Assembly (NCBI GenBank): GCA_035691305.1
Contig: DASSJF010000013.1
Location: 1-64,000 of the forward strand
Source: a bacterium
GTDB lineage: Bacteria; Sysuimicrobiota; Sysuimicrobiia; Sysuimicrobiales; Segetimicrobiaceae
DNA: 64,000 bases
Direction: 5' to 3'
Position numbers and translations under genes: made by a program. Below, piece after piece: positions 17,035 to 18,785 of the stretch; within the stretch, counting starts at the first letter, position 1; each line of letters starts with the position of its first letter. The notes under the pieces are model-generated. The model worked only from the letters and a program-made list of their open reading frames with translations. It was not told where the DNA came from and ran no database searches.

Positions 17035-17310
17035 CTATCCACCGGCCATCGCCGGAACGATGGACACCTCCGCGCCGTCGGTGAGCGGCGTGCGCAGCCC
17101 GCCGAGGAACCGGATATCGCGCTCGTTCACGAAGATGTTGACGAACCGGAGCACTTCGCCCTTGTCGTCGATCAGCCGCGCCCGAATCCCCGGAAACTGC
17201 CGGTCGAGCTCGTCGATCGCCTGCCCCAGGTCGGCGGCGCCGACCTCGATCAGCCGCGCGCCGTTCGTCAGCTGGCGCAGCGGCGTCGGAATGCGTACGC
17301 GTACCGCCAT
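17035..17310 (-). CDS. MoaD/ThiS-like sulfur carrier protein
   Basis: A 91-residue beta-grasp protein ending in Gly-Gly (AMAGG), the form that is adenylated and converted to a thiocarboxylate in sulfur donation. The core RVRIPTPLRQLTNGARLIEV and VNIFVNERDI fit the MoaD/ThiS family. It follows the ThrC-like gene by 19 bases behind a SAM-I riboswitch. By analogy with CysO and CysM, it may pass sulfur to the PLP enzyme next door. No MoaE, ThiG or activating E1-like gene lies near, so a molybdopterin or thiazole role has no local support. Confidence 0.85.
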   Translation of the reverse strand: MAVRVRIPTPLRQLTNGARLIEVGAADLGQAIDELDRQFPGIRARLIDDKGEVLRFVNIFVNERDIRFLGGLRTPLTDGAEVSIVPAMAGG

Positions 17311-17329
17311 GAGAGTGCTCCCTCCCCGA

Positions 17330-18562
17330 TTACGCGGGCACCGCCTGCAGCACCCGCTCCTCGAACGACGCCAGCGTCGGCTTGATCCGCACCGCCGCCG
17401 CGAGCCGAGACTCGACGGCCTCGAACGCCTTCAGCCCGATGCCGCTGATGTACGCGACCACGGTCTCATCCGGGTCGATCGCGCCGGCGAGTGCGAGCTT
17501 CCGCAGCACGCCGACCGTGACACCGCCGGCCGGTTCCGTGAACAAACCCTCGGTCTCGGCGAGCAGCCGGATCGCCTCGACGGTTTCCTCGTCCGAGACG
17601 GCGGCGACCGCGCCGCCGGTCCGGCGCGCGATGTCGAGCACGTACGGTCCGTCGGCAGGATTGCCGATCGCGAGCGACTTAGCGAGCGTGTTCGGGATCA
17701 CCGGCACCACGGTGTCCGTCTCCGCCTGGTACGCGGTCGCGACCGGTCCGCAACCCTCAGACTGCGCCGCGGTCATCCGCACCGTGTGCTGCGGGATCAC
17801 GTCGAGCCGCTGAAATTCCTCGAAGCCTTTCTGGATCTTCACGAACATGTTGCCCGAGCCGATAGGCACGACGACGCGGTCCGGCGCCCGCCAGCCGAGC
17901 TGCTCGGCCACCTCGAATGCGAGTGTCTTGGCGCCTTCCGAGTAGTACGGCCGCATGTTGACGTTGGCGATCGCCCAGCGGTGCTCTTCCCCGATCTCGA
18001 GGCAGAGCCGGTTGACGTCGTCGTACGTCCCGTCAACCTCGACCAGCGTCGGGCGATAGACGGACGTCGTCACCACTTTCCCATGCTCGAGGCCGGTCGG
18101 AATGAAGACCACGGCCCGCAGTCCGGCCTTGGCCGCGTGCGCGGCGACCGCGTTCGCCAAGTTACCGGTGCTCGCGCAGGACACCACGGTGAAATCGAAG
18201 GTGCGCACCGCCGCCATCGCGCAGGCGACGACGCGATCCTTGAACGACCACGTCGGGTTGCGCGTGTCGTTCTTCAGGTACAGGTTGCGAAGCCCGAGGG
18301 CCCGGCCGAGCCGCTCGGCGTGGACGAGCGGGGTGTTTCCGGGAGCGAGGTCCCAAGCCGGCACACGTTGGACCGGAAGGAAGTCCTGGTACCGCCAGAT
18401 CGACGCCGGACCGGACAGAATCCGCGTCCGCAGCGCCTCGCCGCTCAGCCCGCCGTGATCGTACTGTGCTTCGAGCGGACCGAAGCAGGCGTCACAGACG
18501 AAGATCGGATCGAGCGCGTACTTCCGGCCACACTCGCGACATGCCAGCTCGGTCACTCCCAT
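17330..18562 (-). CDS. thrC: Threonine-synthase-like PLP enzyme under SAM-riboswitch control
   Basis: A 410-residue fold-type II PLP enzyme, by homology converting O-phosphohomoserine to threonine. The PLP lysine lies in NPTWSFKDRVVA; the N-terminal CRECGRKY and CDACFGPLE form a zinc-ribbon typical of one ThrC branch; the glycine-rich phosphate site is SCASTGNLANAVAAHA. I chose ATG 18562 because GGAGGGG precedes it; an upstream TTG is less likely. The SAM-I riboswitch and the coupled MoaD-like carrier suggest it may instead, or also, make homocysteine from O-phosphohomoserine. This last point is inference. Confidence 0.85.
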   Translation of the reverse strand: MGVTELACRECGRKYALDPIFVCDACFGPLEAQYDHGGLSGEALRTRILSGPASIWRYQDFLPVQRVPAWDLAPGNTPLVHAERLGRALGLRNLYLKNDTRNPTWSFKDRVVACAMAAVRTFDFTVVSCASTGNLANAVAAHAAKAGLRAVVFIPTGLEHGKVVTTSVYRPTLVEVDGTYDDVNRLCLEIGEEHRWAIANVNMRPYYSEGAKTLAFEVAEQLGWRAPDRVVVPIGSGNMFVKIQKGFEEFQRLDVIPQHTVRMTAAQSEGCGPVATAYQAETDTVVPVIPNTLAKSLAIGNPADGPYVLDIARRTGGAVAAVSDEETVEAIRLLAETEGLFTEPAGGVTVGVLRKLALAGAIDPDETVVAYISGIGLKAFEAVESRLAAAVRIKPTLASFEERVLQAVPA

Positions 18563-18583
18563 TTCTCCCCTCCAATCTGGCTC

Positions 18584-18616
18584 AAACAAAAATCCCCCTC
18601 CAACTCCGAGGGGGAT
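18584..18616 (-). terminator. Intrinsic terminator of the SAM-I riboswitch
   Basis: On the minus strand ATCCCCCTC (18608-18616) pairs with GAGGGGGAT (18592-18600) and a run of uridines follows. The 5' arm is next to the P1 strand of the aptamer, giving the usual choice between terminator and antiterminator. It lies 22 bases before the ThrC-like start. Confidence 0.92.
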
Positions 18617-18622
18617 CTCTCC

Positions 18623-18734
18623 CTCTTATCTACCGGAATTGGATCTCCGCGGGATTTAGCACCACGCCAGGCGGGAAAACCTGGTAGGCTGCCGGGTGTC
18701 ATCGGGCCCGTCCCTCGACCACTCTGGATAAGAG
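18623..18734 (-). promoter_or_regulatory. SAM-I (S-box) riboswitch aptamer
   Basis: Read on the minus strand: the P1 arms CTCTTATC (18727-18734) and GATAAGAG (18623-18630) pair perfectly. Between them are the S-box hallmarks: CCAGAGTGG and GAGGGA after P1, GGCCCGATGACACCCGGCA, the CCAGGT / CCTGGC arm, and GTGCTAAATCC. It controls the ThrC-like and MoaD-like genes, normally switching them off when SAM is plentiful. Confidence 0.95.
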
Positions 18735-18756
18735 TTGCTATTCAGTTGTGTCGCTT

Positions 18757-18785
18757 ACGTTAGCATACACACCCCGGGGTGTCAA
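18757..18785 (-). promoter_or_regulatory. Promoter of the SAM-riboswitch transcript
   Basis: On the minus strand a perfect -35 TTGACA (18780-18785) is followed after 17 bases by TAACGT (18757-18762), a weaker -10. Transcription would start about 15 bases before the aptamer P1. Confidence 0.5.

Follow-up and report, generated by a model that had tools for sequence, protein, structure and literature searches.

The window analysed here (the whole stretch of 64,000 nucleotides from contig DASSJF010000013.1 of a Candidatus Sysuimicrobiota genome) contains, on its minus strand, a SAM-I aptamer, a terminator, a ThrC-family gene and a ThiS/MoaD-type gene in this order (Table 1). The two genes, referred to below as metM and metO, are separated by a gap of 19 bases. 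In the first-pass annotation, this stretch had been described as a SAM-I aptamer with a terminator, a PLP enzyme of the threonine-synthase type and a Gly-Gly-ended carrier, and all three assignments were confirmed by model matches and folding.

Table 1. Features of the metM-metO locus (positions within the window)
Feature	Position	Strand	Basis
SAM-I riboswitch aptamer (S-box leader)	18623..18734	minus	RF00162 full-length match
Intrinsic terminator hairpin and U-run (expression platform)	18588..18617	minus	folding
metM-like, ThrC-family PLP enzyme, 410 aa	17330..18562	minus	TIGR00260, clade, residue signature
metO-like, 91-aa ThiS/MoaD/CysO-family sulfur carrier, end ...PAMAGG	17035..17310	minus	PF02597

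The leader was matched by the covariance model RF00162 with 76.1 bits (E 4.3e-16; gathering score 44.4) and is the sole SAM-I of the 3.58 Mb assembly. It is followed by a terminator hairpin with a U-run (-30.4 kcal/mol, z -3.1). When the leader was folded without the 3' arm of the terminator, the aptamer 3' part CCAAUUCCG paired with the terminator's CGGAGUUGG in the minimum-energy fold, and this alternative pairing in the nascent RNA would be expected to act as the antiterminator. A perfect 14-base palindrome, ACACCCCGGGGTGT, was also observed between lgt and the riboswitch (18769-18782), where it overlaps a TTGACA-like -35 in the metM promoter region; it is a possible operator.

The mechanical start of the metM reading frame (TTG 18589) falls within the terminator, and ATG 18562, which has GGAGGGG upstream, is the sensible start. 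The product scored 300 bits against the thrC model TIGR00260 (cut-off 167) and 238 bits against PF00291. Scores of cysK and cysM models were far under that of the thrC model, and membership of the CysK/CysM family was rejected, the true CysM of the genome being encoded on contig C65. The N-terminus carries a CxxC...CxxC extension, which is absent from the canonical ThrC of the phylum. Sequence identity amounts to 54.7% with the Nonomuraea protein, 54% with the Microcystis ortholog and 38% with the ThrC of the same genome, and the nearest named relative among the best 80 loci of a genome-contig scan is Candidatus Segetimicrobium genomatis (79%). The adjoining carrier ends in AMAGG, scored 50.9 bits against PF02597 (ThiS; cut-off 22.5), and has Mycobacterium tuberculosis CysO as its best solved match (3dwg_C, E 6.8e-20). 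A role as the MoaD of molybdenum cofactor synthesis was rejected because contig C14 carries another MoaD-like reading frame, which is either fused to a MoaE-like region or lies next to one.

The relationship between MetM and ThrC was examined in a tree of 39 proteins, in which each formed one group (split support 100/99). The 28 members of the MetM group come from Sysuimicrobiota, Chloroflexota, Cyanobacteriota, Actinomycetota, Nitrospirota and Planctomycetota, and are placed apart from the ThrC of Sysuimicrobiota. In an alignment of 111 MetM members (including that of the window) and 32 ThrC proteins, numbered according to Thermus thermophilus ThrC, the residues K61, S84, T85, N87 and N154 are common to both, whereas positions 88, 155, 157 and 160, which cluster around the ThrC substrate site, hold T, S, N and R in each of the 32 ThrC proteins and L, N, R and Y in each of the 111 MetM proteins, so that the window enzyme does not carry the T88, S155, N157 and R160 of ThrC. 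MetM also has a one-residue insertion beside N154. In ThrC, T88, S155 and R160 are presumably the contacts of the substrate phosphate. From this alignment the active-site arginine of MetM seems to be shifted, not lost, which would fit a phosphorylated substrate that is held differently.

The first-pass annotation had proposed that the enzyme is a homocysteine synthase, and had taken a second thrC and the lack of a classical homocysteine route as marks of such a function. A separate canonical thrC is indeed present on contig C57, inside a hom-thrC-thrB cluster, which argues that the window enzyme is not the threonine synthase of the organism; two further, more distant ThrC-like proteins are also encoded. 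The outcome for the acyl-homoserine route was also favourable: MetA and MetX were not found in the genome by searches that gave matches in control genomes. Two PF01053 enzymes are present. HcyBio was likewise not found by a search that gave matches in the control genomes. The proposal is thus supported in substance, and the locus is very probably a SAM-controlled metM-metO pair whose predicted activity is the formation of homocysteine from O-phosphohomoserine and the thiocarboxylate of MetO.

Because two gamma-family PF01053 enzymes exist, a cystathionine route from phosphohomoserine, without SAM control, is possible. One of them, encoded on contig C79, scored 488 bits against the model for cystathionine beta-lyase (TIGR01324; cut-off 366), and the other, on C19, is an MGL/CGS-like general gamma-family enzyme with no equivalog over its cut-off. 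The latter might act as a plant-like cystathionine gamma-synthase, the plant enzyme being one that uses O-phosphohomoserine, with the C79 protein as the beta-lyase and MetM/MetO in an auxiliary role. It is nevertheless unlikely that homocysteine is made mainly by such transsulfuration, since a SAM-I is absent from both genes and occurs in this genome solely at metM-metO, and the top score of the C19 protein is that of methionine gamma-lyase, which points to catabolism.

The distribution of the metM-metO pair was then compared with that of canonical thrC. The MetM enzyme was found in 37 and canonical ThrC in 38 of the 43 genomes of the phylum, and the idea of MetM as the sole ThrC of the phylum was rejected on the latter count. 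A SAM-I was detected at 20 of the 29 fetched MetM loci of the phylum and at none of 20 canonical thrC loci used as a control; MetO adjoins metM at 24 of the 29, and no MetO-like neighbour was found at 30 canonical thrC loci. In several families, the gene order is SAM-I, thrB, metM and metO, and in other families lysC lies between thrB and metM. As thrB stands between the SAM-I and metM in these loci, the homoserine kinase, maker of the proposed substrate, falls under the same switch. Three near-complete genomes of genus g11 (G008, G010 and G011) have canonical ThrC, with no MetM at E 1e-100 and no HcyBio detected. The same-genus genome G024 carries two MetM copies (contigs C162 and C21), 90% and 86% identical to the MetM of the window, which may reflect a true duplication or contamination of the assembly.

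A carrier match was found at 76 of 80 loci from other species (the best 80 of the genome-contig scan). Streptomyces was absent from these best 80, and Nonomuraea was used as its actinobacterial stand-in, with Microcystis as the cyanobacterial relative. A SAM-I was present at 10 of the 20 MetM loci tested in other species and at none of the three cyanobacterial loci among them. In Nonomuraea gerenzanensis, all three elements (SAM-I, metM and metO) occur in the same order, with identities of 55% (MetM) and 47% (MetO).

At five loci of relatives (L047, L048 and L053-L055), MetM was kept and no MetO was found within the fetched stretch, which reached at most 1.5 kb to either side. The SAM-I and thrB precede metM at four of these five and, where checked, a GNAT acetyltransferase gene and a uracil-DNA glycosylase-like gene follow it. 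Such loci, and the 51% identity between MetO and the CysO of the same genome, would agree with a MetM that works on free sulfide in the cell, MetO being dispensable or replaced by CysO. This appears quite unlikely, however, in view of the adjacency of MetO at most of the fetched loci of the phylum and at nearly all of the best 80 from other species, and of the MetO dependence reportedly seen in Streptomyces.

For a MetM that draws its sulfur from MetO, the genome offers candidate partners, namely a single ThiF-family (MoeB-rhodanese) E1 and one clear Prok-JAB (JAMM) protein, the latter within the cysO/cysM cluster. The E1 would adenylate the C-terminal Gly-Gly of MetO, leading to the thiocarboxylate, and ThrB would make O-phosphohomoserine, which MetM is predicted to hold as a PLP aldimine. 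The phosphate would then be eliminated and the thiocarboxylate sulfur of MetO added, both at C-gamma, and homocysteine would be set free, perhaps through the Mec-type JAMM protease of the cysO/cysM cluster. At high SAM, the riboswitch is expected to stop transcription ahead of metM and to lower the supply of homocysteine and methionine, and threonine synthesis would go on through the separate ThrC.

The cysteine cluster consists of cysO, an SbnI/SerK-like gene, cysM, Mec (JAMM) and Rrf2 (about 49.4-52.4 kb of contig C65; L018/L025, G000). In this position beside cysO and cysM, the SbnI/SerK-like protein could supply O-phosphoserine for cysteine synthesis. A tentative extension is that, throughout the phylum, a phosphorylated amino acid and a protein thiocarboxylate are the precursors of each sulfur amino acid: cysteine would be made via an SbnI/SerK-like kinase, CysM and CysO, and homocysteine via ThrB, MetM and MetO, with one E1 and one JAMM protease common to both. 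Where no MetO adjoins metM, one carrier may serve the two pathways. If so, acyl-CoA-activated homoserine and free sulfide would both be unneeded. The metM-metO pair would fill the apparent methionine gap of this uncultured phylum.

In Streptomyces, MetM reportedly turns O-phosphohomoserine into homocysteine using thiocarboxylated MetO. The homocysteine synthase MetM was described in this genus, and homologs were noted in cyanobacteria (Hasebe et al. 2024, AEM 90:e01247-24, as cited in PMC12172450); in the same summary, S. albulus also has metO, and a SAM riboswitch lies upstream (Hasebe et al. 2024, via PMC12172450). Since MetM/MetO with a SAM riboswitch was thus described in 2024, the idea of the first-pass annotation is right but not new, and the window locus is most likely a further example of this known system, in Candidatus Sysuimicrobiota. 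The pair is not named in the main text of a 2013 riboswitch-regulon survey. The present analysis adds the distribution across the phylum, the linkage to thrB and the residue signature dividing MetM from ThrC. The signature provides a simple means to end the annotation of MetM enzymes as threonine synthase and, together with thrB under SAM control, supports a phosphohomoserine route across phyla.

These features also bear on a report on Microcystis, in which a MetM-family enzyme was named ThrC. In vitro, the Microcystis ortholog acted weakly as a threonine synthase and as a threonine deaminase, in assays with Na2S and not with a thiocarboxylated carrier; the M. aeruginosa protein is given as 51.6% identical to S. 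albulus MetM, a SAM riboswitch is absent in Microcystis, and the authors doubt that the ortholog fully works as MetM in the cell (PMC12172450). This doubt about a methionine role was raised without the thiocarboxylated carrier, and in a relative from Microcystis novacekii the MetM signature is complete and MetO adjoins. In place of S. albulus MetM, the window MetM was compared through relatives (54% identity with Microcystis, 55% with Nonomuraea). Although the activities of the Microcystis ortholog and the thrC match over the cut-off could suggest that MetM is a second threonine synthase (or synthase/deaminase) that is incidentally SAM-switched, with a carrier for molybdopterin or tRNA thiolation, this is very improbable, given the canonical ThrC in hom-thrC-thrB, the substrate-site residues switched in every MetM, the MetO that adjoins most metM loci and none of the 30 canonical thrC loci examined, the separate MoaD-like carriers of the genome, and the wrong direction that repression of a threonine synthase by SAM would represent.

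Among the closest known systems is MetM/MetO of S. albulus, with which the locus shares a ThrC-like enzyme, a neighbouring carrier gene, an upstream SAM riboswitch, cyanobacterial homologs and (as predicted here) the substrate O-phosphohomoserine; it differs in its occurrence in Candidatus Sysuimicrobiota, where relatives have thrB and sometimes hom or lysC in the same cluster. The locus also resembles CysM/CysO/Mec of M. tuberculosis, which combines a fold-type II PLP enzyme, a CysO-family carrier and a phosphorylated amino acid substrate. In that system, however, the product is cysteine and CysM is not ThrC-like, and the window genome has its own cysO-SbnI/SerK-like-cysM-Mec set. The HcyS/MetY route of Wolinella succinogenes reportedly relies on a MetY-type fold-type I enzyme, not a ThrC-like one. 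As summarised in PMC5764234, it is a protein-thiocarboxylate methionine route (Krishnamoorthy and Begley 2011), and thus shares with the present proposal the formation of homocysteine from a protein thiocarboxylate. Finally, ThrC itself (TIGR00260; 1uim, 2zsj, 6cgq) has the family, the PLP lysine and most of the amino-acid binding loop in common with MetM, whereas MetM is distinguished by four switched substrate-site residues, a carrier neighbour and SAM control.
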